In this document: piece after piece, positions 8,025 through 31,337 of the stretch
Numbering within the stretch: position 1 is the first letter of the stretch
How the letters are laid out: each line of letters opens with the position of its first letter
IMG/VR virus record: IMGVR_UViG_3300044730_000647
Span: 1 to 64,000 of that record
Strand: one strand, 5' to 3'
Source: a virus
Length of the DNA stretch: 64,000 nt
Position numbers and translations under genes: made by a program
Notes under the pieces: generated by a model
The model's database searches: none
What the model saw: only the letters and a program-made list of their open reading frames with translations
What the model was told of the DNA's origin: nothing

Positions 8025-8359
8025 ATTTAGCCGCTTTAGAAGGACAAGTTTTTCTTCTGGGTCACTGGAAGAATTACGAAGAATTAGAAGAAAATTTATC
8101 AATGCCAGAATTGGTTCAAACCATAACAGCGATAAATGAGAAAGAGCATAACCAAAGAAAATTTGCAGCGTCACTAAAAGGAATACAATTAGATGATGGT
8201 GTAGAAGAAAAAGAAAAAGGTTCTACCTTTGAAGATATCCAAAGAAGAGCACTTGGAATAAATGCATCAGCAGATGATGTTGTTGGTTTACAAGGGCCCT
8301 TCGCAGCAAAAGCTGGATTTGGAATTGGCGCAGGGTTAGGATACTCTAGGAGTAATTAG
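7958..8359 (+). CDS. Tail assembly chaperone, frameshift extension
   Basis: This frame is -1 relative to the short chaperone and overlaps it. Its apparent ATG at 7958 has no ribosome site. After slippage at 7982-7988 the product continues DDP-K-PNSGSGTGWSELD and ends at TAG 8357, giving a fusion of about 222 residues. The extension contains a GHWKNYEELEENLSMPEL helix and a charged middle part, as in gpGT-type proteins, whose T part recruits tail tube subunits. The tape measure GTG start overlaps its stop codon. Confidence 0.85.
   Translation: MRRNQDGRPKPNSGSGTGWSELDLAALEGQVFLLGHWKNYEELEENLSMPELVQTITAINEKEHNQRKFAASLKGIQLDDGVEEKEKGSTFEDIQRRALGINASADDVVGLQGPFAAKAGFGIGAGLGYSRSN
7982..8035 (+). 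promoter_or_regulatory. -1 programmed frameshift signal
   Basis: The heptamer CCCAAAC (7982-7988) lies in the zero frame as C-CCA-AAC, matching the X-XXY-YYZ rule. Five bases later AGCGGC (7994-7999) can pair perfectly with GCCGCT (8030-8035) as a 6-bp stem. Slippage joins the two chaperone frames. Confidence 0.88.
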
Positions 8360-11300: not shown

Positions 11301-14300
11301 AATTCAAAGAATGCCTGAGCTTTATGCAGCAGTTGATGCAGCAAATAGCGGATACAATTTTGGTGGGCAGATTATGAACGGTATTCCTGGCTATGGGAAG
11401 AAGACAGATAAGACACCATCTAGCAAGATGGACGAAAGACTATTTAAAAAACAATACAAAGAATATTTAAGATTTATAAATAATCCAAGATATGAAGATG
11501 ATCTAAGAATTAGAATGATTATGCTGGATGCAGCAGAGCTGGCTGGAACTGCAGGAATGCCAGTAGATGAAGCTATTAAGAAAGCAACATCTAACTTTGA
11601 TAAAGCAAAGATGATGTCTGGTGGATCTGATGAAGAGTTCGTTAAGATAAGAATTAAACAGGTACAAAATTTAGAAAAGAAGTATCCAAAGTTACGTGTT
11701 AAGAATGCTAAAACAGCTCAAGAAAGCAAGAGCAACGCTTTAAATTATAAGCTAAATGATGTTAGAGATGCTATGATGGATAAAAATCGTTTTCCAAATT
11801 TTGTTGGAGTAAAGGATTTAATAGAAGCGGTTTCACCAACAACATTTAAAAATAAAGATGGTATGCCAATTATTCAAGGATTGCATGAAAGAGCACATTT
11901 TAGAAGACGTAAAGATCTTGGATATATGACTAGTGGCTATATGGGATTAGCTGCAGTACTACCTCCTGGAATAAATAACATAATGAGCAGACTTGAAGGA
12001 ATTGGTCTCTCTAGAGATGTTCTAAATTTAAATGCAGCAGATGCAAGAGAAAACTTCGAGCTAGCCTTAAAGCGCACAGGAATGGATAAGTTTGCAACAG
12101 TAGATGATCTATATGCCGCAGTTCAAGATGATGGAAAGTTTAAAACCAAATCTGAATATGAATCAGGAAGAGTTGTTAGGGCAACTAAAGAGCAAAAAAA
12201 TTCTTTACGGATGTTTTTAGAAGCAGCTGCAAAAAGACAAAGATGGCTACCAACAAGACCTCCTAGGCTTGTTATGGGTGGATACAATCTTGGCGGAATG
12301 ATTCCAGGTGGATACATATCTAGGGGCAGATCAAATTATGGAAATATTGCTCCTGCATTAAGATTGCTTGCACCAGATAAACAATTAAAGATTTTAGCAA
12401 AGGCAAGAGAATTAAGCTCAAGAAGCTCGCTAGGCAAGTTTGCCGATATGCCAGTAACTGAGTATGGGCATCAAATTTCTGCAAGCACAGGGATGAGTTA
12501 TCCTGTACCTGGTGTATCTGGATTGTATAAGGTCGGTAACAAAAAAGTTTTTGTTAAAGGTGTTCCTAATGAATTAACTGCCGTCCATGAGCCAATTGGC
12601 ACTCAAATTGCAAGAGATCTTTTTGGAATACATTCTCCAGTACAAACAGCTAGGACAGTTGCAAATCCAGTAGATCCAACAAAAAGAACCAAGCTACTTG
12701 CTTTAGAATCAGATTACGACCCACGCTTTGCAAACACTAATGTGCCATGGGATGAAGATACAGTGCTCAGACAGCTTGCTAATTCTCTTCTTTTAAACAA
12801 CAAAGATTTATCTAGAGCAAACGTGTATGGTAATTTTAATCCAGATGTTGGGCAAGCTGGAGTATTACCTAAAGCATCTGGCAATACACGTCTTGCAACA
12901 GCTGATGAAATGAACTCTATGGAAAAGCAAGCAATGATTAATCTACTTGCCGTTAAAGGTGGAGCAAGAAAAGATTTCGCACGTGACACTGCACCAATAA
13001 TTTCTAAGATGAGTCCGAAAAAATATGGTCGACGAATGAAGAAAATATTAGAAGATGCTCGTCCAAAATTATTAAAAATAATAAATGATTTACCTGTAGA
13101 TCTTAGACCTCCTTATCAAGCAATGCTTAAAAGATTGGATGATGGTATAGAGGTTGATTGGAGTCAATATCATGCCGTGCATGCTAATCCAAAATATCTT
13201 AATGCTGGAGGTCCAGTTGGTGGCGGCCCAATTAAGCCAGGAAGACGTGCCTATGGTCGAAAAGATGGTTCACGTAGACCAGGAAACCCTGCTGCAAGAG
13301 CTAATTGGGAAGCGGAACAACGTGCACAAAGAGAAAGAGATTTAGCAGCAGAAAGATCTAGGGCTTCATCTCGTCAAATTACTGGTCAACAGGCTTTAAC
13401 AACAGGATTAGGAAGAGAAGCAGTTAGATCTGGAACAACAAGCTTCTACAACCCTGGACAAGTAATGGTTAACAATATGATCGACCCATTTAGAAATTCA
13501 GCAGCAATGAAAACTCAATATTTATCAGCAGCTTTTAGATCTATGGGAAATTCAATTAAGGTAGACTCTATGCAGCTAGCAAAAGCTATAGATATAAATG
13601 CAAGAGTTATTACTCAGTCTATAAAGAATACTGCTACAACCATGAGCAGTTCTGTAAGATCAGCTGCCACATCAACATTAAATTTTGCCAGAAGAGCACA
13701 AAACGCAATCATAAGAGAGCAAAATGCATTTGCAGCAGCTAGATATCCTGTTGGACAAGCACCAGCACAAGGATTCTTTGGCCCAGGTTTTGTTGGAAAT
13801 TACAAGGATTTGGGCGATAATATTCAGTCTAGAAAAGTAGGAACTCTAGGAATGAGAAGAACAGAGTACCTTGTAGACGGAAACGTAATGACCGCAAAGC
13901 AAGCTAAAGCTGAAGGAATAAATATCCCAAGAAGATACAATGGTATGAGTATGGGTTCTCAAATGGGAATTGGAATGGCTGGATCAATGGGCGGAATGGC
14001 ATTGATGAGCAAAGAAAAGGTTAACATCCTAGGAAAAGAAATGTCAGGTATGAATGTTGGCATGGGTGTTATGGCTGCTACTTCAATACTTCCAATGCTT
14101 CCATGGGGTAAAGTTGGTACTGGCATAAAGTCTGCTGGAACTGCGCTAAAAGGATTTTCATTGTCAATGAGCGGGCTAGCAAAATTTGGAGCTATGCTTG
14201 CAAGATTTGCTAAGGGCTTTGGTTTAATAGGAGCAGCAATAACGGTTGCAACTGCAGCATTTAAAATTTATAAGGATTATAAAGATGCTCAGCAAGATGC

Positions 14301-17300
14301 TTCTATAGGACTTTCTATGACAGCTAAAGCTGCGGAGCAGGCTGGAATAAAGTATTTTAATCTTAAAGAAACCATGCAAGGCTACATAGATAAACAAAAA
14401 TTAGCAACCGCAGCAGCCAAGGGTGCAGAAGGAAACTCAATTGGTATGCCTGGACTACCTCAATCAATAGAGGAACTAAAGAAGGCAAAAGAAGAAGGAA
14501 AACAATTAAAAGATGTAATTGAATCCTTAAATAGATCAGAAACAACAGCAGAAACACAAAGATTAATTAATAATCAAAAAGCACAAATGGTTGCTGCTGG
14601 AATGAGCGTTGAAGAAGCAAATAAAAAAATATACGGTGCTTTAGCAAATAGCAATAAAGCCTCTCAAGCATACAAACTGCTTGCAAATACAGAATTTGGA
14701 GCAATAACAGATAAAGCTACAGCGGCAGAATTTTCTGTTGGAAATTTGGTAAACACCTTAAGCAAAGGAACAGGAACTGCTGATTGGTATAAAGAGGTAG
14801 GAAACGGTTTTGAAGGACTAATAGGTGTATTTTCTGAAGCAACAAAATCTTTAGTTGGAACAAAAGATGAGCTTGGAAATGTTATAGATGAGTTTAAAGC
14901 TTATGAAATGGTTATGTCTAAAGCAGAAACAAATAACCCAGGCATGAATAAAGAAATAGGTAGAGACGTATACTTAAATCTTCAAAAAACACAACCTTTG
15001 CTAGCGGGAATCATTAATGAATCAGACACTATAAAGGGAATACTTGCAAAGTGGAAACTTTTTACTGCTGGAATAAATATTGATCTAAGCAAAATAGATT
15101 CTACTCTAGCATCAAAACTTGCTGGATTTACTTCAGCAATCGGAACAGGAATCTCCCAGCTAACACAAGCTGCTGATTCTGCTACCACATACGCGACTGT
15201 TGGATCTGCTTTATCTAAACTTCAAAAAACAATTGCTGCAACTTCTGCAGCAGCTCAAAGAGCAAATGCAGCTTCTCAAAGAAGTGCACAGGAAGAATTA
15301 AAAGCAATTGCTAAAAAAATTAAGCTTATAGATGAAGAAAAAAATAAAAAGCTGGAGGCCTTAAGAGCAACTCAAGATGCATCAAATTATGCATTGCAAT
15401 TACAAAAGCTTCAGATAGAATATGCAGATGCTGTCTCTCGTGGAGACATGGCTGCAGCAAATCAAGCCAAGTTGGATATAGATCAACTCACACTTAATAG
15501 ACAAGCCGACCTTGCTCAAAAAGCAATAGAGGATGCAGCAAATAAAGCAAAGGCACCTTTAGAAAAAGATGCACAAGCAATACAAGACGCACAAGATAAA
15601 AAGAATACTGTTTTTCAAAATAATCAAGATAACTCTGCAGTAGCAGCTGATATAAAAGAATCTCTTGAAAAATTCCAGCTAACGTATAACGAGCTTAGTA
15701 CAAGAGCTGTTAACGCACAGCTTCTTTCAGGTAAAGATAGAGTTGAAGAAGAAGCAGATATTAAGAAACAGCTTATTAGTTTCCTAAAAGAAATGCAAAA
15801 GGCTGGTACTGGACCAGGCCTGCTTGCACAAACAATAAGAAATGCATTCCCAGGATATTTTAATTCAGACGGAAAGCCAAAAGTTCCTGAAACAGTAACT
15901 ACTGGATCTCCAACTGGATTTGATGCACAGGGAAGACCTATTCTTTCAACAAATACAACAGTAAACAATGATTCTCTTTCCCAGTTTAATAAAGATATTG
16001 CAGCTGTAAGCAAGCTAGCAGTTGCTATAACTGGAAATGTTACTTTGAGAAAATTACGTGACGACCTTGTGGAAGCACTAGGTAAGTATAAGGGTGATAT
16101 TAAATACGGATCAAAGGCTCAAGCATTAGAAGTTAAAGGTAGCAAGTATGATAAGTATTTGCAAGAAGACGGAAGCTTAAATTCTCAAGGTAGAAGAGCT
16201 TTAATGAAGGACAATAAATTAGGAGCAGATCAGTTCTTTACATATAAAGGAAAGACATATAGGGGGCAGGGAGCTGGCGCAGATGACTTATTGCCAGCAG
16301 TTTTGCAAAAAGCAGATGGCGGATATATAAAACACTTTAATCCAGGAGGAAAAGTTACTGGTCCAGGAACGGCAACATCGGATTCTATTCCAGCAATGCT
16401 TTCAGATGGAGAGTATGTATTTAGTGCAAAGGCTGTAGACGCCGCTGGTGGTGCAGATGTTGTAGATGGTTGGCACAAAGCACTTAGAAGAGCAGATGGC
16501 GGTCCAATTCTTACATCACCAAGACAAAAGAAACCAGGTGTTCCATATTCAAGATCTGGAAGACCGATAGGAAATCCTTTTGGACAATACTGGGGAGAGC
16601 TTTCAAGATTTATTGGACCACGTAGTCCAGGCATGGATATTTGGGGCGGAACAGAAATACCAGGACTTAAGTTTACTGGAAAGGTTCCACAGCATTCAGA
16701 CTACATGCATCAGATGCTTGAGCAGCCACGCAAGCCATTTACAAGCCCAGGAATGGGTCTAGACAAAGACCCTATGCGCCTTGCAGGCTCTGGAGCCTCT
16801 ATGGGCGGTATCGGTAATGGAGCCTATGGACTAGGGCCACTCATGTTTGCAAACGGTGGTCCAGTATCTTCGTTTGGGTATCATGCAAAGCCAGACCCAA
16901 AACAATCATTCTTAAATAGAATTCTATTTGGAGTAAAGTATGTTGGGGGGCCACAGCCAACGCAATTAGGTGTTCCATTTGGTCCTGGTGGAGTAGCAAA
17001 AATTGCTAAAATGTTAGCAAATATTAAAGAAGCAAAAGCGTTTACACATTTTGCTCATTCTCCTATAGATTCATTACAGCCATCAATAGGAAGAAAAAGC
17101 CCAGCAATGGCAAACTTTGGTCTTGGCACTTATGGATCCACTAAGGGGATATTTGAGGGCGCACAATTTGGAGAAGTGGCACATAAACTAAGCTTGTCAC
17201 CATTTGCTTGGATTAAAACAGCTTTAGGTAAAGGACCGATTGACGATGCTGGATTGGCATTAGAGGCAGCGGCATTTAATAAAGCAACAGGATCAAAAAT

Positions 17301-17814
17301 TAGTGGAAGCTCAATGTATTTACACAATGAAGATTTTGTAAAATTCTTATCTAGCAGAGGATACACTGGTTATAAAACTGGAGACATAGTTACAAATTGG
17401 AAAGTTGGTTCCCCAGGATTTGGTTTAAAAACCTCACTAGGAAAAGTTCCTTTCGGTGGTATTCCAAAGTCTACATCTTCTCAAACAATTGATCCACCTA
17501 GCGGACTAATCCTTGCCAACGGTGGTTTTGTTACTAAATCTCTTTCAAACCTTGGCGTACCGATGTTTGAAAATGGAATTAATATGGTTCCTGCAAATAT
17601 GCTTGCGATGCTTCATAAAGATGAAGCAGTTATCCCAGCTAACATGAATCCATTTAATCCAAATGCTACGGCGGCAGCAACAGGATCAGTATATAATATA
17701 AATGTAGAATTAAATGGAACAAACGTGACAGCAAAAGATGTTGCACTAGAAATACGTAATGAGATGAGATTAAAAGAAATGGCAGCTGGAGTAAATAGAA
17801 AGGTTGGGTCATAA
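8359..17814 (+). CDS. Tape measure protein with extra enzyme-like modules
   Basis: 3151 residues from a GTG start in the stop of the chaperone frame. Residues ~150-480 carry the TP901-type tape measure core (LVRLTKVYGG, IAATGKMGND, YMTAMREGGINASEGANALKSG). Hydrophobic Gly/Ala segments lie near 540-570 and 1870-1980; a coiled coil spans about 2290-2440. Gly-rich hinges of the type GG-x(n)-GPG...SDSIPAMLSDGEYVF recur near 915, 975, 2680 and 3085 and separate non-helical modules. One (about 1385-1610) resembles a kinase fold: Lys1400 in VFVK, Glu1411, and Asp1483/Asn1488 in NKDLSRANV. Another (about 2890-3040) resembles an ADP-ribosyltransferase. The family sets tail length and enters the host with the DNA. 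Tape measure call certain; modules are inference. Confidence 0.93.
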   Translation: MADEQIVTSIVAKADLSSLVSEVHRASSSLQQLQRELLSSNRAISASTKLANNLFRDTLTGSGQFSSHFVNLNSDVDKFGKNLDSGRLKLKNYFQTFREHATTQKGMIRELAKEQVMLQNSVLQPLGRNAQGLMQYNVMIPRGLDAVKNSAQLARMELQIMNRALSEGAGSLINWGKNTQWAGRQLTVGLTVPLTMFGAAAGKAFREADQELVRLTKVYGGLAATSATDLKAIREEVVQTAKSLSQTMGASFKDTIALGADIAATGKMGNDLLGSIEETTRLAILGEVDRQDAMKATLSIQTAFKQNTQQLTESINFLNAVENQTSTTLNDLVEAIPKAGPVIQQLGGSIEDLALYMTAMREGGINASEGANALKSGLASLINPTKQTVGMMSDFGIDVLGMVAKNTGNTTGMLTDLQTALNKLDPLSKARALEQMFGKFQFARMSALLNNLGKEGSQTLQVMDLMKASTSDLAGIAERELGMITESASGKYRKAMESLKAELASVGEEFLGVATKLINAASKILNFFTELPTPIKKALTFMAGFTALVGPLIMLTGVLANFFGYITKGIVQLRSFFMRANGWKMLTPEIIAAQKAAEMVENAFYSDAAAAQVLHNALQKLVLDYQNLQAASMKSAVPVNAGVSTVAGNAIVAPAHGRRVVDPNDPYVGDLNTRAMSHIRPRDPNNPATLFGGVPGAIPVNRGISRTPQIYMHDRLPNVEGLTSVKGISTGIVAPEAAKFHALMATLGMQTEQEVANLKKTIAMGGTVSRELLDTFDDILPITQRFADSAATQSALIVQQMRNAEITVDQAKARILALNAQIEADMGSAVSMYAAGRGRTIDLTRAPMMDQPVVDANGQFTLRDLYKKKTNAAVMEEFGRVRGVRTFGAPYSIQTTRMPKFNIGGDIESFGPNKTVVSGPSSVDYDDRLGSVPLGGYVLNQQAAMDPANAPLVAMAPSTYLNDGGNITAALTPREVVFGPQIQRMPELYAAVDAANSGYNFGGQIMNGIPGYGKKTDKTPSSKMDERLFKKQYKEYLRFINNPRYEDDLRIRMIMLDAAELAGTAGMPVDEAIKKATSNFDKAKMMSGGSDEEFVKIRIKQVQNLEKKYPKLRVKNAKTAQESKSNALNYKLNDVRDAMMDKNRFPNFVGVKDLIEAVSPTTFKNKDGMPIIQGLHERAHFRRRKDLGYMTSGYMGLAAVLPPGINNIMSRLEGIGLSRDVLNLNAADARENFELALKRTGMDKFATVDDLYAAVQDDGKFKTKSEYESGRVVRATKEQKNSLRMFLEAAAKRQRWLPTRPPRLVMGGYNLGGMIPGGYISRGRSNYGNIAPALRLLAPDKQLKILAKARELSSRSSLGKFADMPVTEYGHQISASTGMSYPVPGVSGLYKVGNKKVFVKGVPNELTAVHEPIGTQIARDLFGIHSPVQTARTVANPVDPTKRTKLLALESDYDPRFANTNVPWDEDTVLRQLANSLLLNNKDLSRANVYGNFNPDVGQAGVLPKASGNTRLATADEMNSMEKQAMINLLAVKGGARKDFARDTAPIISKMSPKKYGRRMKKILEDARPKLLKIINDLPVDLRPPYQAMLKRLDDGIEVDWSQYHAVHANPKYLNAGGPVGGGPIKPGRRAYGRKDGSRRPGNPAARANWEAEQRAQRERDLAAERSRASSRQITGQQALTTGLGREAVRSGTTSFYNPGQVMVNNMIDPFRNSAAMKTQYLSAAFRSMGNSIKVDSMQLAKAIDINARVITQSIKNTATTMSSSVRSAATSTLNFARRAQNAIIREQNAFAAARYPVGQAPAQGFFGPGFVGNYKDLGDNIQSRKVGTLGMRRTEYLVDGNVMTAKQAKAEGINIPRRYNGMSMGSQMGIGMAGSMGGMALMSKEKVNILGKEMSGMNVGMGVMAATSILPMLPWGKVGTGIKSAGTALKGFSLSMSGLAKFGAMLARFAKGFGLIGAAITVATAAFKIYKDYKDAQQDASIGLSMTAKAAEQAGIKYFNLKETMQGYIDKQKLATAAAKGAEGNSIGMPGLPQSIEELKKAKEEGKQLKDVIESLNRSETTAETQRLINNQKAQMVAAGMSVEEANKKIYGALANSNKASQAYKLLANTEFGAITDKATAAEFSVGNLVNTLSKGTGTADWYKEVGNGFEGLIGVFSEATKSLVGTKDELGNVIDEFKAYEMVMSKAETNNPGMNKEIGRDVYLNLQKTQPLLAGIINESDTIKGILAKWKLFTAGINIDLSKIDSTLASKLAGFTSAIGTGISQLTQAADSATTYATVGSALSKLQKTIAATSAAAQRANAASQRSAQEELKAIAKKIKLIDEEKNKKLEALRATQDASNYALQLQKLQIEYADAVSRGDMAAANQAKLDIDQLTLNRQADLAQKAIEDAANKAKAPLEKDAQAIQDAQDKKNTVFQNNQDNSAVAADIKESLEKFQLTYNELSTRAVNAQLLSGKDRVEEEADIKKQLISFLKEMQKAGTGPGLLAQTIRNAFPGYFNSDGKPKVPETVTTGSPTGFDAQGRPILSTNTTVNNDSLSQFNKDIAAVSKLAVAITGNVTLRKLRDDLVEALGKYKGDIKYGSKAQALEVKGSKYDKYLQEDGSLNSQGRRALMKDNKLGADQFFTYKGKTYRGQGAGADDLLPAVLQKADGGYIKHFNPGGKVTGPGTATSDSIPAMLSDGEYVFSAKAVDAAGGADVVDGWHKALRRADGGPILTSPRQKKPGVPYSRSGRPIGNPFGQYWGELSRFIGPRSPGMDIWGGTEIPGLKFTGKVPQHSDYMHQMLEQPRKPFTSPGMGLDKDPMRLAGSGASMGGIGNGAYGLGPLMFANGGPVSSFGYHAKPDPKQSFLNRILFGVKYVGGPQPTQLGVPFGPGGVAKIAKMLANIKEAKAFTHFAHSPIDSLQPSIGRKSPAMANFGLGTYGSTKGIFEGAQFGEVAHKLSLSPFAWIKTALGKGPIDDAGLALEAAAFNKATGSKISGSSMYLHNEDFVKFLSSRGYTGYKTGDIVTNWKVGSPGFGLKTSLGKVPFGGIPKSTSSQTIDPPSGLILANGGFVTKSLSNLGVPMFENGINMVPANMLAMLHKDEAVIPANMNPFNPNATAAATGSVYNINVELNGTNVTAKDVALEIRNEMRLKEMAAGVNRKVGS

Positions 17815-18404
17815 TGAGTTTTCAAAATTTAAGTAAAGGCTCAATTTTATACATAGAGGCACTAGACCCATTTGCAATTGATACAGCAAACAACTCATTT
17901 GATTACAAAGGAGCGTCTGTTGTTGCACCAGGTAATTCATATACATCATCTGTAGCAACTAGAAACAACTTGTCCTACAGCTCTAAAAATCAATTAAGAT
18001 TTAGAAGAGTTACTGAGCATAATAGACAGCCAATCTCAATAGATACAAACAGAATTGAGCAATCGTCTAGAATGTCAAATGGCACACTCAGAAAATATTT
18101 TGTTGCTGATAAACTTACCATAAATATTTCATGGGAAATGCTACCTTCTTTTAGAAATGAAACAGTTGACGGTGCCTGGGGCGCAGAAGATTTAAAAAAC
18201 TTTTATGAAAGTTCTGCTGGTAGACTACCTTTTAGAATTAAATTAAACCCAACAGTTTTTAGTACAGATTTAATTGAGCAATCTGATGGAGCCTTATCAG
18301 ATGACTATACTTACACAGTAATGTTTACATCTTGCAGTTTTTCAGTTATTAAAAGAGGACTACAAACATTTTGGAGTGTTGACATATCTTTGGAGCAGGT
18401 ATGA
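17814..18404 (+). CDS. Distal tail protein (putative)
   Basis: 196 residues; its ATG overlaps the tape measure stop codon by one base. It is beta-rich and ends in strands such as YTVMFTSCSFSVIKRG and TFWSVDISLEQV, as in Dit-type tail proteins that cap the tube before the hub. It overlaps the next gene by 4 nt (ATGA), so the two are coupled. The assignment rests mainly on position. Confidence 0.6.
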   Translation: MSFQNLSKGSILYIEALDPFAIDTANNSFDYKGASVVAPGNSYTSSVATRNNLSYSSKNQLRFRRVTEHNRQPISIDTNRIEQSSRMSNGTLRKYFVADKLTINISWEMLPSFRNETVDGAWGAEDLKNFYESSAGRLPFRIKLNPTVFSTDLIEQSDGALSDDYTYTVMFTSCSFSVIKRGLQTFWSVDISLEQV

Positions 18405-21400
18405 TAACTGTATCAAATGAAACTAAAGATTTAATTAAAAAAGGATATTCGCTATCAACTTCAGCTGGAGCTACAATTGAATACAATCTTAACTCTATGG
18501 TTGAATATATAAAAGCAACATCATCTGCTTTAACAAACCCGTTTGGTCCTGCTTTTAAAAAGCTATTTCCAATAGATACTATTTATAAGCCATTTAGACC
18601 ACTATCTCCAGGAATTAAATATCTAGTTCATACAAATAATAACACAGACACCCCCGTTGATTCTTTTGAAAGACCAAGGGATTTAGATATTGGAACAAGG
18701 CCAAGGCTTTATTATCCTGGACCAGATATGGTTTATAAATATTGGTTAGCGCCTAAAAACACTAATATAGATATTTCTTTAGAGTATTTTTCAGATGAAG
18801 CAAAGACTACTGCAAAATTAGTTCCCGCCAATAAGATTGTTGCCAGATTTGAAACTAGCCACGACACACCCACATCATGGACAATAACTGGAGTTAAGCA
18901 AGATAACACAACCATAACGGTATCTGGCACAACTCTCACCCAAAAAGAAGCGCCAGATTATAAAGGCGGGGAAGCAATAATATATTATGATGGAACTACA
19001 TGGTCAACTGCAGAACCTACTACATATACAACAACTCAATACTTTAAAAAGATATCTTTAGCTGCAGTTAATTCAAATACAGGAAAGTTTTTGGGAGTAA
19101 TTGAGTTAAGTCCAAGATGGGTTATGTCAATAGATTCAGACATTGTTTCGTTTACAGTAAATAAAGAAACTACTTCAGATGATACCTCTATTGTTCCAGT
19201 TGGGGTTATAACGGCAAACTACCTCAGCCTTTTGATAACAAAATACAATACTACATCTAGGCAGATAGTTGAATATGATAGGTTTGGCCCAATAGATAAC
19301 TCAAAACTATATTTGTTTAAGAATGCAATTATAAGACCACACATAAATATTGGAGACGGATCTTCCGTGCAAAAGGTACCTCAAGGAGTTTTTTATGTAG
19401 CCTCTTGGTCACTATCAGAGTTTGGAGAAGCATCCATAGATGCAACAGATGCTGCAAAAATACTTCAAGATACTATATGTCCTCAGCTTTTAGTAGAGTC
19501 TTCACCTGTAACTTCAGTAATTAAAAGAATTTTAGACTCAGTTGGATTTTCTAATTACAAGATAAATATTAAAAAAACAGATGGGAAGGTTGATGACGAC
19601 TCTATTCCATCTTTAGTTTATTGGTGGTCGGACGGTGAACAAACAGTCTGGGAAGTTTTGCAAGAGCTATGTAGAGACATACAGATGAATGCATTTGTAG
19701 ATGAATACAATGTATTAAACTTTTATACTAGAAACTTTATATACGACAAAGAATTACCTACCTCATGGATATTTACAAATGAGGAAATCAAGTCTGGATC
19801 TAATGTAGAATATGCGCCTAACATAATTAGGTTGTCTACCAAGGAGCTTTTTTCAGCTAATAATGTTAGAGTAAGATATAAAACAGCATTTGTTTCTACC
19901 AATTCAGAATCATCCTCTCCTTTGTGGAAATCTGAATCTTCATTTCTAGGTGCTGGCTCCCTTGCAACAGATATCAATGACGACAGTACAAAGTTTCAGC
20001 TTAATCAAAATACAATAAATTCTGCAAGAGTAGATAAAATCTTAGATCAGTTTAACGGTTATGTTTTAATAAACGGAGAAGTTATTGAGTATGATGGAGT
20101 CTGGTATCAGTATGTACCTGAAGAGAAAGACACAACATTTACTCCTCCACGTGATAAGCCTCCAGTTAGAGTGCTAATTAAAAATCAATCTGACATATGG
20201 AAGTATTCAGCTTTAGCTAAACCAGGTTATAAATATTTTTATCCTACTGGAGAGTATAATATAAAAACCAGAGGAGCTTTGTCCACCTCTAAAATGTCTC
20301 ACAAAAAAACTTTAAACTCTTACATAAATGAGCCTGGGCAAAATGATTCAAATAGATTTAATAAATATAATATTACCCTAGCTACTCCAGATGTAGCAAA
20401 GCTAAAGCCTGGTGTGGGAAGTATTACAACTCCAGCAAACACCGAAGAAGAAACAATTGCAAAAAGCTTTTTAGCAATTTCAAATCTAGATAAAGATAAA
20501 AAAACTTTTGATATTGCAGTTAAAGATTTTAATTCAGTAGATACTACAAAGCCTTTTGTTTCATTTGGAACAAGGATGTTTTTTGATAGCCAGCTTAATA
20601 CACCAGAGCAGGTAGGTGGCATTGGATTTTGCTTAGACTCAACTGGCAAAAATGGTTACTACGTGCTTGTACGCACAACTGCATTTTCTGGCCTTCAAAA
20701 AGATATTATGGTTGTTAGAGTTAATAATAATAAGCTTACAGTTTTAAAAGATAGCCAGCAGACATCTACCAAAACATTGGCTGGAATTTACGCTGGCAGC
20801 TCTTACAATATAGATGTACTGGTAAAAAAAGAATCTTTAAAAAATATAATTACTGTCTTTATTAATGGATTTAAAATTGAAGCAATTGATTCTGGAAGTG
20901 ATTCTGTTAATTTAACTATTCCACCTCTTTCAATAACAAAAAATGTTGGACTACACTGTGGTCAGGGAATTGCTTATTTTGAATATCTGTATGCTAAAAG
21001 TATTGATGAAGATGTATACAAAAATATATCTTTAACCAGGAATTATGAATACAATGGTGTTTATGCTGATGATACTCTTTCTATGCTATTTGGAGATTTA
21101 ATTTACAATGCTGGCCAAACCGCTGCCGACGAAAACGGTGCCCTTTTTGAATTCGGAACTACCGCTAGAGAAATAAGAAAAGTAAAAGAGTCTTATGATG
21201 ATGAGTCTAGACCAGCCGTACCAATTACTTTTAGAACCGCATTAAATAAATATGTTAAAATATTAGATCAAAGGTTACAGCCTTTCGGTGCCGAATCTTA
21301 CGTTTTAAATAACACTTCAACTACTGTAGTTTTAGATGATAGTAATAATACAAGTTTTTATGTTTTGGGAAATTCTATAAGAAGGTCTGGCGCCATAGAC

Positions 21401-21703
21401 TACGATACAGATCAGTCAGAGGACTCCTCAAATAAAGAATTTGTTGTTTTTGAATCTTCTTGGATTCAGTCTGAAGAGGACGCAAAAACTTTAGCAGATT
21501 GGATAAAGTCAAGCGTATTAAATAAAGGAAGGTTTGTGGACATAGAAGTTTTTGGAAACCCTTTAATTTCTGCTGGCGATATTATAAGTATTAAATACCC
21601 AGTTTTGGGCATGTCTGAAACAGATACTAAATATTTAGTTGTTAGATGCTCCTTGCAATATAGTGAGGGGGTAACCACTACGCTTTCATGTAGAGCAATC
21701 TAA
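18401..21703 (+). CDS. Tail hub / baseplate protein with lectin-like insert
   Basis: 1100 residues. The section about 300-480 (FYVASWSLSEFGEASIDATDAAKILQD, then YWWSDGEQTVWEVLQELCRDIQMNAFVDEYNVLNFYTR) has the pattern of tail hub proteins (Tal / gp27-like) that form the base under the tube. Residues about 690-870 (FVSFGTRMFFDSQ, GIGFCLDSTGKNGYYVLVRT, VFINGFKIEAID, VGLHCGQGIAYFEYLYA) look like a concanavalin/laminin-G jelly roll, likely for sugar binding. The C-terminus returns to hub-type sequence (GDIISIKYPVLGM). Hub role likely, lectin fold inferred. Confidence 0.7.
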   Translation: MITVSNETKDLIKKGYSLSTSAGATIEYNLNSMVEYIKATSSALTNPFGPAFKKLFPIDTIYKPFRPLSPGIKYLVHTNNNTDTPVDSFERPRDLDIGTRPRLYYPGPDMVYKYWLAPKNTNIDISLEYFSDEAKTTAKLVPANKIVARFETSHDTPTSWTITGVKQDNTTITVSGTTLTQKEAPDYKGGEAIIYYDGTTWSTAEPTTYTTTQYFKKISLAAVNSNTGKFLGVIELSPRWVMSIDSDIVSFTVNKETTSDDTSIVPVGVITANYLSLLITKYNTTSRQIVEYDRFGPIDNSKLYLFKNAIIRPHINIGDGSSVQKVPQGVFYVASWSLSEFGEASIDATDAAKILQDTICPQLLVESSPVTSVIKRILDSVGFSNYKINIKKTDGKVDDDSIPSLVYWWSDGEQTVWEVLQELCRDIQMNAFVDEYNVLNFYTRNFIYDKELPTSWIFTNEEIKSGSNVEYAPNIIRLSTKELFSANNVRVRYKTAFVSTNSESSSPLWKSESSFLGAGSLATDINDDSTKFQLNQNTINSARVDKILDQFNGYVLINGEVIEYDGVWYQYVPEEKDTTFTPPRDKPPVRVLIKNQSDIWKYSALAKPGYKYFYPTGEYNIKTRGALSTSKMSHKKTLNSYINEPGQNDSNRFNKYNITLATPDVAKLKPGVGSITTPANTEEETIAKSFLAISNLDKDKKTFDIAVKDFNSVDTTKPFVSFGTRMFFDSQLNTPEQVGGIGFCLDSTGKNGYYVLVRTTAFSGLQKDIMVVRVNNNKLTVLKDSQQTSTKTLAGIYAGSSYNIDVLVKKESLKNIITVFINGFKIEAIDSGSDSVNLTIPPLSITKNVGLHCGQGIAYFEYLYAKSIDEDVYKNISLTRNYEYNGVYADDTLSMLFGDLIYNAGQTAADENGALFEFGTTAREIRKVKESYDDESRPAVPITFRTALNKYVKILDQRLQPFGAESYVLNNTSTTVVLDDSNNTSFYVLGNSIRRSGAIDYDTDQSEDSSNKEFVVFESSWIQSEEDAKTLADWIKSSVLNKGRFVDIEVFGNPLISAGDIISIKYPVLGMSETDTKYLVVRCSLQYSEGVTTTLSCRAI

Positions 21704-21726: not shown

Positions 21727-22074
21727 ATGGGAATTGAAGTAGGAAAAATACCAGTCATCTTTGATGATGACCCTCGTTTAGCCGAAGTTTGGAAGGGCAA
21801 GTCTGGAGAGACTAAGTCCATTACTCAATCCTTTCCATTTGGATCAAACAGTTCTGTAGGATCTCCTGGGGACGAAGATGGAGACGACGATCCCAAAGGC
21901 GGTAAAAGGCCTCAGCTTTCAGACATAGTTTTAAAAGGATTTGAGCTGTATGAGGATGCATCTGGAATGCAAAGAGCAAGAGCTAAGTTTAGAATTTACA
22001 ATTCAAGCGAAGAGAAGATAGATGGTTTCTTATACGCAATAACAATATCAGATAAGCAGGGAGGAAGATCATGA
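21727..22074 (+). CDS. Small tail-module protein, unknown
   Basis: 115 residues. It has an acidic Gly/Asp linker in the middle (SPGDEDGDDDPKGG) and a C-terminal beta-rich part (VLKGFELYEDASGMQRARAKFRIYN). I do not recognise it. It starts 6 nt after an extended -10 box, so its mRNA should be leaderless, and overlaps the next gene by 4 nt. Placement among receptor-binding genes suggests a baseplate accessory. Confidence 0.6.
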   Translation: MGIEVGKIPVIFDDDPRLAEVWKGKSGETKSITQSFPFGSNSSVGSPGDEDGDDDPKGGKRPQLSDIVLKGFELYEDASGMQRARAKFRIYNSSEEKIDGFLYAITISDKQGGRS

Positions 22075-22931
22075 TAACTAAATTTGGTAAAAGATTTCTT
22101 ACTAATTTTGTAGCTGGTAACTCATCATTTTCTTCAAAAGAAATGGCTATTGGAATTGCAACAGGAACTGAATATGCTTTGTCAGATACAAACTCAAGAC
22201 TTGGTTTTGAGTTCTATCGTGTTCCAATTAGGGTCGGAGGGATCGATATAGACTCTTCTGTATCACCAATAAAATATACAGTAATCTATTCAGCTACACT
22301 TCCTACAAACATTGCAGGTAAGATTAATGAAATTGGAATCTACTCTGGCCAGTCTTATTCAAGAAATTTATATGAAAGCAAATTTATATCTAACTTTGAA
22401 TTGCCATACCAGTGGAGTCCAGAGCCAGAGCTAGATCAAACAAACTTTAGAGTTGGAGATAGTTCGTTAACATTTACATCAAATGGGGCGGCCCCAAAAG
22501 AGTACACTTACATACTTGATAGTATGGATATATCTGGGTACAACCCATTAGATACATTATCATTTTCATACAAAGCAAATGATGCAAACCTGTCCTCATT
22601 GAAGGTAAGGCTCTATAGCTCAAATACCGATTACTTAGAATTTACATTTACTGGACACTCAGTTGGAAACAATATAAAGAATTTAAACATGTCTACTGGG
22701 GTATCAACAGGAACATTTAATCCACAAAGTGTTGTTAAGTTAGGAATTATTGTTACTCCAACAACTGCTCAAACATCTGTATCTATGGATGGTCTTAGAA
22801 TAAATGACGAGGACACCTTTGATCCAGAATACGGTCTCATTGCCAGATCTATACTAGACTCAACAATGATTAAAGTAATTGGAAGAGAAGCATCAATAGA
22901 ATTTAAACTAGACCTTTCGTTTGGGGTTTAA
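22071..22931 (+). CDS. Tail fibre / baseplate protein (putative)
   Basis: 286 residues, ATGA-coupled to the gene before. The N-terminal ~110 residues (FGKRFLTNFVAGNSSFSSKEMAIGI...PTNIAGKINEIGIYSG) resemble attachment domains of phage tail fibre proteins, including the conserved EIGIYSG-type strand. The C-terminal half (LDSMDISGYNPLDTLSFSYKAND...LKVRLYSSNTDYLEFTF) looks like a carbohydrate-binding jelly roll. Role in adsorption is inferred. Confidence 0.6.
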   Translation: MITKFGKRFLTNFVAGNSSFSSKEMAIGIATGTEYALSDTNSRLGFEFYRVPIRVGGIDIDSSVSPIKYTVIYSATLPTNIAGKINEIGIYSGQSYSRNLYESKFISNFELPYQWSPEPELDQTNFRVGDSSLTFTSNGAAPKEYTYILDSMDISGYNPLDTLSFSYKANDANLSSLKVRLYSSNTDYLEFTFTGHSVGNNIKNLNMSTGVSTGTFNPQSVVKLGIIVTPTTAQTSVSMDGLRINDEDTFDPEYGLIARSILDSTMIKVIGREASIEFKLDLSFGV

Positions 22932-26664: not shown

Positions 26665-29600
26665 ATGACAATCTGGAGAAGAATTAACGACTCAGGCGGT
26701 GAGGTTTCTGTAGCCACTAATGGCTGGGTAAAAATAAAAAATATTTTTAGAAGAATAAATGACTTCGGTGGAGAAGTCAACGTGGCTGATCGTGGCTGGG
26801 TAAAACTTAAAAGCATATGGAGATACGAAGGAAGCGGCATCTGGAGAAGAATATTTGGAGCAGCGTTCCCATATCCAAAATCAGACGTGGGTCTTGTATT
26901 TATATCTCCATCATCGATAGAGTCAGAGTATCAGTGCACTCAGCAAGACAAGATGTATGTCAGAAGAGGAAAGTGGTACGAAGACCCTAAATCCTTTTTA
27001 ATAAAAATTCAAAAGGCTGCCCTTGGCGGGTGGGCAGATCAAACAGATTTAATAACTCAAGAATTAGAGTATCTAGAATATAAAGACTCTGACTACCTAG
27101 ATCAGGTTCCAACGAATACTGCATTGCGCCCAGTAATTAATTTAGAAGACATTAAAAATAAAGTTGGGTTTAGAGCAAAGATTCAAGCTGCAGAAGATAA
27201 AAATCCAGAAGAGTCGGATTACTTAGAGGCAACTACATGGTATCCAAGTGCAAACGGAATATTCCCAAAACTAACATTTGGATTTCACACATACAGCACT
27301 GGAGATCAAATAATTGAAGATGAAACACTTAGCATGCCTGAATTTAAAATATTTGGATTTAAATGGCAGTACCTAACATCATCTGCATCATCATATCCAA
27401 ATGGACAATATTTTTCTTCATCTCGGACTGATGAGTTTATTGGAAAGCAAATAGTTGAGTTTACTGATTTTTATGGTACAAGGATAGGAGATCTGAAAAG
27501 CGAAGACGTACTTCCAAATCACCAGTACTCTAGTTTTGTACAGTATACACAAGCAATGATTGATTCTGGTGAAGACTATATAATTAATGTTTATGCAGTT
27601 GCAAAAGATTACTATTATAATCCCAGCCTTTCTTTGGAGCAGCACCTGCTAGATTTTAATGAAACCCAACAAGTTGCTTCATATGTATTTACCCCTCCTA
27701 GGGAAATAGAAAACCCAGAAATAACAATATCAAATAGAACAAAAAGCTCCGCAGACATTTCTTGGTATTCACCAGATGCAGAAAGATACAAGGTTGATCT
27801 AATTGATTCTATTACAGGTAACTCTTTGCCTGGCTATCCATTAGCCTCAACAACAAGTACTTCTGCCAGCCCTTTTGGATTAACGGAAAACAGACTGTAT
27901 ACCGTTTTGGTAACGGCACTTGCTGGAGAAGGAGATAAGTACAAAAGCGACGAGGTTTCTAAAAGCTTTAGAACAATTTCTACTGGCGTAGAGGCAATTC
28001 TTGGAGAGCCTTATGATATTACAGAAAATAGTTATAAGGTATATATAGCAAACTATAGCAGCTTATCTGGATTTACTATAACAGCAAATGTAAGCTTAGG
28101 GTCAGCATCCATATCTGCAGATGTAATTTCAGTATCTGGAATAACAAGCAGTGGAGATTCCTGCCTAACTGTTACAACTGAAAAAATAGATAATGTCAAT
28201 TTAACTGCAGTCTCTTATGAGCAAGCTACATCCGACACTCTATGTACAGAAATAGGTTCCATATGGTACTGCTTAACATATGGAAATACTCAGCCAGTAG
28301 TTTGTTCTGGGCCAACAATTGAGTTATCGGATAAATCTGGAGGCGCTAGCGGATACTCTATAACCTGCTCTAAAACAGAAATATGTTGTCAAAAGGTCGT
28401 GCTGGAGCCAAAGGTTTATACAGAATGGGTTATTGGATTGTGTACAGTTTTCCCTGCAGATCCTAAGAGACCAAGAACTAGACAATGGACACAGCAACAA
28501 AAAACTACTTCTCAAAATTGCGTAGTTACTACTGTTGAGCTTTCTGGCTCAGAAACAGAATACATAGATTGTTGTATTGCCACCTCAACTTTAGGCGAAA
28601 AGACTTATGGAACTCCTGGTCCTTGGGGTACGTGTACTCCTAACGTAGGAATAACTAGACTAGTACCATGGACTGCTACTAGAACTAATTACAGCAGAGA
28701 CTGCATTACCACTACAACTCAAGAGTCTGGGAATGAGCAGCAGTTTAAAGATTGTTGTGTTGCCAGCACAGTTGACGGGGATAAGACATACAGTGCCTGG
28801 TCTGAATACGGCGAGTGTTATGGAGCTGATCCTAGAAGAACTCGATCAAGAACCTGGACTGCACTAAGAATAACAACAAATACTAGCTGTGTTGAAACAA
28901 CAACAGAAATAAGTGGTACAGAGCAACAGGACACAAGCTGCTGTACACCTTCTACAACTTATGGACCAAAAACTTACGGAACACCTGGCCCATGGGGTAC
29001 ATGTAATTTAAATACTGGACAAATAGGAAGACTAATTCCCTGGACAGCAACAGCTACTACTATAAACTCAAGCTGTGTTACTACGGTTGGTCCAGGATCT
29101 GGAAATGATGTCGATTATAAAGATTGCTGTACTTCCAGCGTCACCACTGGCCCAAAGACATACAGTGACTGGTCTGCATACGGAAGCTGTATCCAAGGAG
29201 AAAGAACACGCTATAGAACCTGGACGGCAATTGAAACAAGCAATACAATTAACTGCACATCATCAACAAAAGAAGTAAACGGAACTGAGTTTGGGTATGC
29301 GCCATGCTGCACAGCTGGGTGTACTCTGGGTACTAAAACCTACGGTGATTGGTCTGCATACGGAAGTTGCAGTAATGGCGAGAGAAGAAGACAGAGATCT
29401 TGGACTGCAATAAATACGTGTATCGATTCAAGCTGTAATATAATTTCTCAAAATGAATTAAATAGTGTTGAGTATGAGTACACATCATGTTGCACTCAGG
29501 TATGTACAACTGGTGAAAAGACTTATGGGGCCTGGGGTGCGTATGGAAGCTGTAATCTATTTACCTCACAGATTTGCAGAACAAGACCTTGGACAGCTCA

Positions 29601-30741
29601 ACAATCTTGTTTTACAACAAGCTGCACAAATGAAGTAACTACTATTTCTGGAAATGATATTGAGTGTATAGATTGTTGTACTGCTAGCGTTACCACTGGT
29701 CCAAAGACATATAGTGCCTGGTCTGCATACGGAAACTGTAGCCAAGGAGAAAGAACACGCTCTAGAACCTGGACGGCAATTGAAACAAGCAATACAGTTA
29801 ATTGCACTTCATCAACAAAAGAGGTTAGCGGAACTGAGTTTGAGTATGCGCCATGCTGCACGGCAGGATGTACAACTGGTGATAGAAGTTATAGCGCATG
29901 GGGGTCATGGGGGTCATGTAGCCAAGGAGAACAGGCTAGAATTAGAACTTGGACTGCTATAGAAACATGTATTAATTCAAGCTGCAATGTTTTGTCTACC
30001 AGAGAAGTTAGTAGTTTTGAAATAGAATACAGAAACTGTACCACTATTAATACAATTAATACTATTAACACAATTAATACTATTAACACAATTAATACTA
30101 TTAACACAATTAATACTATTAACACAATTAATACTATTAACACAATTGATACAATTGATACAATTAATACTATTAACACAATTGATACAATTAATACTAT
30201 TAACACAATTGATACAATTGATACAATTGATACCATTGACACAATTGATACAGGCGGTGGTGGATGTCACGTTGTAGGAACTAAAATACAGATGGCAGAT
30301 GGCACATTTAAAAATATTGAAGACCTTTATATTGGAGATGAAGTAATGGCAGCAGACGTTCCAGGTGTTGGCGACAACGAAGCTGACATAAGCAATCTAT
30401 CTCTCTGGTCATCCGAAGATATTTCTGGAACAACTAAGACTGTAGCAAATGTAACAAATGTTATTATAAGATCTTATGGACAGTACTACTTAATAAATGA
30501 TACAATTAAGATAACGTACGAGCATATTATTCCAGCAAGACAAAACGGTGTTTGGAAATTTATTGAGGTTAAAGACTTAAATGTGGGTGATACAGTTATG
30601 AATGAGAATTTAGATAACGTTACGGTTACCTCAAAAATTTTAGTTGATGAAATAGTCGAAACAGTTTCAATTAATATTGAAAATAAAGACATATACTTTG
30701 TTGAGGGCTTAATGGCTCACAACTTCAGCGAAAAGACATAA
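26665..30741 (+). CDS. Tail protein with TSR-like repeats and C-terminal Hint domain
   Basis: 1358 residues. The N-terminus has a duplicated ~30-residue unit (RRIND..GGEV.VA..GWVK). Residues about 355-445 resemble FN3. Residues about 583-1126 hold nine thrombospondin type-1-like repeats of ~60 residues with a W-x2-W/Y-x2-C, then R-x-R-x-W pattern and paired Cys. A (Thr-Ile-Asn/Asp)23 run follows (30043-30249), then Gly4 and Cys1201, which opens a Hint domain: CHVVGTKIQMADGTFKNIEDL, His1287 in ITYEHI, and a final AHN (Asn1353) followed by FSEKT. The Hint has the catalytic Cys, block B His and terminal His-Asn of inteins but no Cys/Ser/Thr after Asn, so cleavage rather than splicing is expected. 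An adjacent gene encodes a hydroxylase. Confidence 0.85.
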   Translation: MTIWRRINDSGGEVSVATNGWVKIKNIFRRINDFGGEVNVADRGWVKLKSIWRYEGSGIWRRIFGAAFPYPKSDVGLVFISPSSIESEYQCTQQDKMYVRRGKWYEDPKSFLIKIQKAALGGWADQTDLITQELEYLEYKDSDYLDQVPTNTALRPVINLEDIKNKVGFRAKIQAAEDKNPEESDYLEATTWYPSANGIFPKLTFGFHTYSTGDQIIEDETLSMPEFKIFGFKWQYLTSSASSYPNGQYFSSSRTDEFIGKQIVEFTDFYGTRIGDLKSEDVLPNHQYSSFVQYTQAMIDSGEDYIINVYAVAKDYYYNPSLSLEQHLLDFNETQQVASYVFTPPREIENPEITISNRTKSSADISWYSPDAERYKVDLIDSITGNSLPGYPLASTTSTSASPFGLTENRLYTVLVTALAGEGDKYKSDEVSKSFRTISTGVEAILGEPYDITENSYKVYIANYSSLSGFTITANVSLGSASISADVISVSGITSSGDSCLTVTTEKIDNVNLTAVSYEQATSDTLCTEIGSIWYCLTYGNTQPVVCSGPTIELSDKSGGASGYSITCSKTEICCQKVVLEPKVYTEWVIGLCTVFPADPKRPRTRQWTQQQKTTSQNCVVTTVELSGSETEYIDCCIATSTLGEKTYGTPGPWGTCTPNVGITRLVPWTATRTNYSRDCITTTTQESGNEQQFKDCCVASTVDGDKTYSAWSEYGECYGADPRRTRSRTWTALRITTNTSCVETTTEISGTEQQDTSCCTPSTTYGPKTYGTPGPWGTCNLNTGQIGRLIPWTATATTINSSCVTTVGPGSGNDVDYKDCCTSSVTTGPKTYSDWSAYGSCIQGERTRYRTWTAIETSNTINCTSSTKEVNGTEFGYAPCCTAGCTLGTKTYGDWSAYGSCSNGERRRQRSWTAINTCIDSSCNIISQNELNSVEYEYTSCCTQVCTTGEKTYGAWGAYGSCNLFTSQICRTRPWTAQQSCFTTSCTNEVTTISGNDIECIDCCTASVTTGPKTYSAWSAYGNCSQGERTRSRTWTAIETSNTVNCTSSTKEVSGTEFEYAPCCTAGCTTGDRSYSAWGSWGSCSQGEQARIRTWTAIETCINSSCNVLSTREVSSFEIEYRNCTTINTINTINTINTINTINTINTINTINTINTINTIDTIDTINTINTIDTINTINTIDTIDTIDTIDTIDTGGGGCHVVGTKIQMADGTFKNIEDLYIGDEVMAADVPGVGDNEADISNLSLWSSEDISGTTKTVANVTNVIIRSYGQYYLINDTIKITYEHIIPARQNGVWKFIEVKDLNVGDTVMNENLDNVTVTSKILVDEIVETVSINIENKDIYFVEGLMAHNFSEKT
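26668..26820 (+). repeat. Tandem duplication at N-terminus of TSR tail protein
   Basis: Two copies of a unit encoding RRIND-(S/F)-GGEV-(S/N)-VA-x2-GWVK-(I/L)-K-x-I lie head to tail, with a partial third WRR. Protein identity between copies is high and synonymous changes are few. Confidence 0.75.
29128..29320 (+). repeat. Recent duplicate repeat, copy 1
   Basis: About 190 nt that match 29677-29870 nearly base for base, with mostly third-position differences. The similarity is far above that of the other TSR units, so this pair duplicated or converted recently. Confidence 0.75.
29677..29870 (+). repeat. Recent duplicate repeat, copy 2
   Basis: Partner of 29128-29320. The two copies are in the same frame, 0.5 kb apart, so recombination would delete or add three TSR units without breaking the frame. 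Confidence 0.75.
30043..30249 (+). repeat. (Thr-Ile-Asn/Asp)23 coding minisatellite
   Basis: Twenty-three 9-nt units (ACAATTAAT, ACTATTAAC, ACAATTGAT variants) in an 18-nt higher-order pattern encode TIN eleven times, then a mix of TID and TIN ending in five TID. The unit keeps the frame whatever the copy number. The run joins the TSR repeats to the Hint domain. Confidence 0.95.
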
Positions 30742-30755
30742 GATGGGGGAACAAG

Positions 30756-31337
30756 TTGAAGGTAGAAGACCTGGGAAATAAAATATTTATGTATAAGAAT
30801 GCAATAGAAAATGATTTGCAAATTCTTACTGAGCTAAATAGTATATTTTCTGATTATAATCAAGACTATAAGTCCGCAACAATAAATAATCATGACTATG
30901 ACCCCTCCTTGCGTTCGTGCACTGTTTTTTCATTATACACAAACTTGCAAGACAAATCCGATTACAATAATGCAAAAAGAGTTCTTAATAAAAAAATAGA
31001 TCTAGCATTATCTAAGTGTATATTGCATTTTGTAAGATCAACTGGAATAAAGATAAAAGAAAGGGAGCCGTGGGAGATATTAAAGTATGAGCAGTCTCAA
31101 AAGCTCACATGGCACAGTGACGATGGAAAAAGCCACCCGTCTACTATATCGTTTGTTTACTATATAAATGATGATTATGAGGGAGGGGAAATTCAGTTTA
31201 AAGATAAAGCATACAGCATACCGATAAAGCCTCAAAAGAATAGCCTGATAATATTCCCTTCCAGCTCAGATTATATACACAGGGTTTTGCCAGTAGTAAG
31301 CGGAGTGAAGCACTCGGTAATATCCTTTGGCAAATAA
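30756..31337 (+). CDS. 2-oxoglutarate/Fe(II) oxygenase, prolyl-4-hydroxylase-like
   Basis: 193 residues from TTG 30756 with a GGGGGA site upstream. The iron-binding triad is visible as His120 and Asp122 (WHSDD) and His175 (YIHRVLPV); Lys185 in GVKHSV sits where the family binds the 2-oxoglutarate carboxylate. YYINDDYEGGEIQF and SLIIFPS are typical strands. Such enzymes hydroxylate protein side chains, commonly proline, using oxygen and 2-oxoglutarate. It follows the TSR/Hint tail protein by 14 nt, so a tail protein is a plausible substrate; that link is inference. Confidence 0.88.
   Translation: MKVEDLGNKIFMYKNAIENDLQILTELNSIFSDYNQDYKSATINNHDYDPSLRSCTVFSLYTNLQDKSDYNNAKRVLNKKIDLALSKCILHFVRSTGIKIKEREPWEILKYEQSQKLTWHSDDGKSHPSTISFVYYINDDYEGGEIQFKDKAYSIPIKPQKNSLIIFPSSSDYIHRVLPVVSGVKHSVISFGK

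Follow-up and report, generated by a model that had tools for sequence, protein, structure and literature searches.

The window analysed here comprises 64,000 nucleotides (positions 1 to 64,000) of the 65,078-base IMG/VR record IMGVR_UViG_3300044730_000647, from an uncultured water phage. It contains an open reading frame (ORF) for a fibre-like protein that ends in a Hint domain, and the question raised by this locus is what such a domain does at the very end of a phage structural protein. Taken as a whole, the best explanation, which is considered probable, is that of a fibre precursor with a self-excising A-type bacterial intein-like (BIL) domain, this module being a removable C-terminal cap placed on many different fibre bodies. 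The features on which the argument depends are the following (coordinates in the window):

26665..30741, + strand: ORF of the fibre-like protein, 1358 amino acids plus stop; near-identical ORFs in the relatives L001, L002 and L004, partial in L003
30253..30264, + strand: Gly1197-Gly1200, on the acyl side of the bond predicted to be cut; Gly-1 kept in 30/30 relatives
30265..30723, + strand: Hint domain (A-type BIL), Cys1201-Asn1353, from Pfam, PHROG, the family profile, AlphaFold2 (AF2) and fold matches
30514..30525, + strand: block B motif T1284-Y-E-H1287; T, E and H invariant in alignment A2
30718..30723, + strand: terminal His1352-Asn1353 (block G), invariant in 30/30
30724..30738, + strand: C-terminal tail FSEKT, five residues; the +1 residue is Phe1354, not Cys/Ser/Thr (translation)

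An intein-like domain at the end of a fibre-like protein

The C-terminus from Cys1201 comprises 158 residues, with the stop directly after FSEKT. Gly1200-Cys1201, ITYEHI (1283-1288) with H1287, H1352-N1353, the tail and the stop were all read from the translation, and the residues named by the original prediction (Cys1201, His1287 in ITYEHI and a His-Asn followed by Phe) were all at their positions; C1201 is the single Cys of the domain. The isolated domain matched Pfam PT-HINT with 28.1 bits (gathering score 27.7, 2.7e-6) and the whole protein with 19 bits, below the gathering score. The isolated domain also matched PHROG 38766, labelled 'virion structural protein' (4.3e-13). When a profile of 30 relatives was searched against the PDB, the best match was the Clostridium thermocellum BIL 2LWY (7e-16), followed by Tetrahymena BIL2 (6Y75/6TMM, ~3e-12) and then by inteins. 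The matches to PT-HINT, PHROG 38766 and 2LWY bear out the predicted Hint domain by profile search, the check that had been named for it, and lie well outside what chance would give. Furthermore, the AF2 model of the domain (predicted local distance difference test, pLDDT, 90; predicted template modelling score, pTM, 0.84) gave fold matches to BIL2 6Y75 (5.7e-9) and 2LWY (2.9e-8), with inteins and Hedgehog 1AT0 (7.6e-5) coming later. The structures 6Y75 and 6TMM represent BIL2 of Tetrahymena BUBL1, which has isopeptide chemistry (PMC8616854). Thus, by sequence, predicted fold and motifs, the C-terminal domain is an A-type BIL: a Hint fold with an N-terminal Cys, the block B TxxH, a terminal His-Asn and no fixed Cys/Ser/Thr at +1 were all found. 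The nearest relatives by both sequence and fold being BILs, the prediction that this Hint domain belongs to the type without a +1 nucleophile was upheld.

Conservation among viral relatives

A tblastn search against 50,697 phage records matched 94 of them, 52 with at least 80% query coverage. The long matches came mostly from Erwinia jumbo phages and also from Dickeya AD1, Yersinia fHe-Yen9-02 and Phage NCTB; in these jumbo phages, the Hint domain ends a collagen-like structural protein of the tail region. Moreover, two IMG/VR scans led to 58 loci, and clustering at 90% left 30 complete non-redundant members, with those outside the clade of the window showing 26-39% identity to it. Gly-1, Cys1 and His-Asn were kept in 30/30 of these viral relatives, and the TxEH block was invariant in alignment A2. 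The TxEH motif belonged to the search pattern, so only the invariance of Gly-1, Cys1 and His-Asn counts as unbiased, these residues lying outside the search patterns and their invariance therefore not being a selection effect. The +1 residue took nine identities (F, N, I, Y, L, A, T, V or P), often Thr in the jumbo clade, as expected of a BIL and not of a splicing intein, while the stop came 4-31 residues past the Asn in all 30 members. At least three Gly directly preceded Cys1 in 17 of the 30, and such a run is a flexible, unhindered acyl donor. Within the clade of the window, the sequences show purifying selection on the Hint region (window vs. L005: nonsynonymous rate, dN, 0.11; synonymous rate, dS, 0.90).

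A stand-alone Hint copy was observed in Phage NCTB (BN7874_135; L013, 6492-6953), right after an intact Hint fibre gene. Cys1 and the block B His are gone from this copy and His-Asn is kept; in contrast to the conserved family, it shows what a relaxed copy looks like. A bacterial or prophage origin was rejected, as a scan of 84,980 genomes gave no confirmed relative, although it relied on a single peptide pattern.

One module on many bodies

The bodies carrying the domain formed nine groups without detectable mutual similarity, distributed over freshwater phages and Erwinia, Dickeya and Yersinia jumbo phages. These include the group of the window, the collagen-like proteins of the jumbo phages, BACON-domain proteins with Pro/Thr linkers and a body of 1628 amino acids. 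Outside the jumbo clade, the linkers are of low complexity, namely (TIN)n, (PVG)n, (PTAT)n or Pro-rich. The identities of body and Hint domain disagreed between relatives, being 0.69 and 0.81, respectively, for the window vs. L005, and 0.87 and 0.70 for L007 vs. L019, which indicates recombination of the module in one piece. In L017, the linker is the same and the Hint domain is 76% identical, and the body matches that of the window over the first ~370 residues only (29%).

Proposed self-processing and its alternatives

BILs have no +1 nucleophile and act through a Cys1 thioester and Asn cyclisation, mostly with cleavage and in some cases with ligation; those studied experimentally cut at both ends and ligate weakly (PMC4031507, PMC7664689). 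From the computed domain, catalytic residues, conservation and modular spread, we infer an activity, an order of steps and a purpose for the window protein. The precursor would be a tail fibre whose last 158 residues form a self-processing A-type BIL domain plus the five-residue tail. After folding, Cys1201 would attack the carbonyl of Gly1200 in an N-to-S acyl shift, with Thr1284 and His1287 assisting, and a thioester would form at ...TGGGG. Asn1353 would cyclise with the help of His1352 and free the FSEKT tail, while water or an amine would resolve the thioester and let the Hint domain leave. The mature fibre would end in the (TIN/TID)n-GGGG linker, either bare or joined to another amine. 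Competence for cleavage is strongly implied by the invariance of Cys1, Thr, His and His-Asn. Accordingly, of the earlier claim that the domain cleaves rather than splices, the BIL type stood and competence is implied by the catalytic residues, with cleavage itself staying putative; the domain is judged very probably active. The timing suggested earlier, after assembly or on meeting the host, and a cross-linking of the arm stay conjectural.

Several points weigh against this self-excision. The assignment of the ORF to the virion comes from the position of its gene and from PHROG labels, and no cleavage product has been observed. In addition, by our own reading of the alignment, Ser seems to stand where many inteins have the block F Asp, whereas the jumbo-phage relatives have Asp. 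Finally, the retention of Asn1353 for the freeing of five residues is hard to explain unless the tail joins the reaction. The invariance of His-Asn, for so small a released piece, points to a C-terminal step of some importance, be it for an ordered release or for ligation of the tail. Under such a ligation of the BIL type, both ends would be cut and the alpha-amine or a Lys of the tail would attack the Gly1200 thioester, so that a short peptide would replace the Hint domain (...TGGGG-FSEKT, or an isopeptide with the Lys of the tail). The invariant His-Asn despite only 4-31 following residues favours this route, by which A-type BILs are able to ligate (PMC4031507), and an isopeptide to Lys is what BIL2, the closest match by structure, produces (PMC8616854). 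Lys is present in 30/30 tails and 10/10 lineages, with a product of background frequencies of ~0.002, although this residue was picked post hoc among 20 residue types. However, the Glu-Lys codons of the tails in jumbo phages also resemble the ribosome-binding site of an overlapping next gene, and such a tail has no known function. The tail Lys as a conserved acceptor is therefore suggestive and a lead, and ligation of the tail is considered unlikely. By analogy with Tetrahymena BIL2, which joins ubiquitin-like domains, the Gly1200 thioester might also be handed to an amine of a neighbouring virion protein or of the host surface, welding the fibre covalently without ATP or added enzymes; this is regarded as quite unlikely.

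A different use of the domain would be that of a removable chaperone or cap, which aids the folding of the fibre or holds its tip inactive until cut, resembling peptidase S74 with other chemistry. The strictly C-terminal position on fibre-like bodies at all loci and the flexible linker before the cut site agree with it, while the low complexity of that linker, lying between body and Hint domain, makes direct help in folding unlikely. To our knowledge, Hint domains are not known as chaperones, and this function is rather unlikely. The degenerate copy in phage NCTB could point to a catalytically dead domain kept as a structural tip, yet Cys1, Thr, His and His-Asn are invariant in 30/30 divergent members and dN/dS is low, which leaves this possibility improbable. 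Least credible, to the point of being highly improbable, is the idea that a longer host gene has been interrupted by an ordinary splicing intein or by a broken split intein. Such inteins have the same fold and blocks A, B, F and G, and UvsX split-intein pieces of other phages were among the matches. However, no insert-free homologue, C-extein or homing endonuclease was seen, the +1 residue of the window protein is not Cys/Ser/Thr, the stop follows after five residues, and all relatives share this arrangement.

Among the specific identities considered, a canonical (class 1) intein was rejected on account of Phe at +1, the five residues before the stop, and the lack of a C-extein and of a homing endonuclease. 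A class 3 intein, in which a block F Cys (WCT motif) replaces Cys1, was discarded because C1201 is the sole Cys in the domain. The matches to the UvsX-type split intein of T4-like phages span only the first two thirds and sit in recombinase genes, and this identity was also rejected. Pretoxin processing was excluded as no toxin domain follows the Hint domain, the tails having 4-31 residues in 30/30.

Fibre body and neighbouring genes

The remaining features of the gene and its surroundings are these (coordinates in the window unless another locus is given):

26665..26862, + strand: short N-terminal Trp/Arg repeats (WRR...GWVKIK.I.R), from the translation; similar N-termini in L005, L007, L008 and L017
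27718..27960, + strand: fibronectin type III domain, residues 352-432 (Pfam fn3, 26.5 bits, exceeding the gathering score)
28378..30039, + strand: about nine Cys-rich repeats of ~60 amino acids, W..[YFW]G.C....R.R.WTA...C...CC; all-beta model, resembling but not established as thrombospondin type 1 repeats (TSRs)
30042..30251, + strand: (TIN/TID)n low-complexity linker, a DNA tandem array of period 18/27 (Tandem Repeats Finder)
30756..31337, + strand: adjacent 2-oxoglutarate-Fe(II) (2OG-Fe(II)) oxygenase gene (Pfam 2.9e-15; PHROG 61 4.2e-26), linked by position only
Other 2OG-Fe(II) oxygenase genes: L007 6486-7064; L017 6495-7076; L022 1130-1768 and 2024-2629; L023 6959-7576

A tail role of the ORF is likely because genes for a tape measure protein (8359-17814, 3151 amino acids), a minor tail protein (18401-21703) and a tail protein (22071-22931) lie upstream on the same strand. 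Of the 'phage tail adhesin' originally proposed, the tail part is supported by this position and the adhesin part stays conjectural. The N-terminal Trp/Arg repeats possibly form the part that anchors the protein to the virion. No similarity was found in a paralogue comparison with an upstream protein of 1243 amino acids. The linker has 23 units here and 31 in the otherwise near-identical L002, a fast-changing length polymorphism of the fibre gene.

The arm had also been described as made of TSRs. The AF2 model of two Cys-rich repeats was all-beta (pLDDT 96.6), and Pfam found no TSP1 domain in the repeats. Foldseek placed properdin TSRs at ranks 3, 8 and 9 of the matches to this model, with weak, non-significant E-values of 0.06-0.12. 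The TSR identity of the arm was thus not established, properdin TSRs being the most plausible among the weak fold matches.

In several lineages whose linkers are of the TIN/TID or PVG type, 2OG-Fe(II) oxygenase genes occur directly after the Hint fibre gene or one gene further; the position directly downstream was also seen in L007, L017 and L022. These enzymes might hydroxylate the Asn/Asp- or Pro-rich linker, or the adjacency may be a coincidence, such genes being common in aquatic phages. Another recurrent arrangement was observed downstream of proteins with BACON domains and a C-terminal Hint domain in L025, L027, L049 and relatives, where ORFs of 267, 687 and ~184 amino acids follow in conserved order. 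By size only, this order recalls a contractile-tail (sheath/tube) module, and none of the three ORFs had a PHROG match at 1e-4.

Previous records and significance

The combination of a Hint domain with a phage tail adhesin had been presented as not known to be described, which was overstated. A structural protein with a C-terminal Hint domain is already present in about 50 jumbo-phage records, and in GenBank NCTB and Y3 have entries with the description 'putative phage tail protein, contains intein domain'. No paper on the C-terminal Hint domain of phage fibres emerged from a full-text literature search that covered Hint domains, BILs and inteins of phage tails and also Erwinia phage Y3, and nothing relevant was found on the virion proteomics of Dickeya phage AD1. 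In the papers on CBB, phiCbK and PaBG, inteins are mentioned for terminases or ribonucleotide reductase at most. The combination is therefore recorded in annotations, yet no paper was found that describes or tests it.

Intein-type chemistry at the C-terminus of fibres with at least nine groups of unrelated bodies, with catalytic residues that are strictly conserved, points to a putative general step of processing as virions assemble or attach to the host. A few C-terminal self-cleaving chaperones are known to trim phage fibres. Moreover, the proposal is directly testable, since relatives occur in Erwinia and Dickeya jumbo phages that are in culture, the point of interest being the fate of the Gly thioester (hydrolysis, the five-residue tail or another amine). 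Protein ligation could also profit from these small natural BIL domains, which may leave a Gly thioester.

Comparison with known systems

Peptidase S74 is a self-cleaving C-terminal intramolecular chaperone on tailspikes; it differs in fold and chemistry from the domain described here and was not matched in the Pfam scan of the window protein. The C-terminal autoprocessing domain of Hedgehog (1AT0) is also a C-terminal Hint domain with a Gly-Cys cleavage site, whereas the window protein has only FSEKT in place of a sterol-recognition region and retains the His-Asn terminus seen in inteins and BILs. The PT-HINT domain of polymorphic toxins belongs to the same superfamily, the window domain alone barely passing its Pfam score. 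PT-HINT precedes a C-terminal toxin that it releases (PMC3482391), while no domain follows the Hint domain here. Among phages, the Hint proteins of the jumbo phages (NCTB SBV38305, Erwinia phage Y3 YP_009794284, PHROG 38766) share the homologous C-terminal domain, the same catalytic residues and the short tail; however, they have a collagen-like body, mostly lack a long Gly run before Cys1 and often have Thr at +1.

Tetrahymena BIL2 (6Y75, 6TMM), the best fold match, shares the Gly before Cys1 and the absence of standard splicing. It links the upstream Gly end through an isopeptide to a Lys (PMC8616854), which is supplied by a second domain that follows, in contrast to the short tail found here. 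Finally, the C. thermocellum BIL 2LWY shares Cys1, the block B TxxH, the terminal His-Asn, the lack of a fixed +1 nucleophile and the Hint fold; compared with A-type BILs, the domain here terminates a phage structural protein, which ends 4-31 residues past the Asn.

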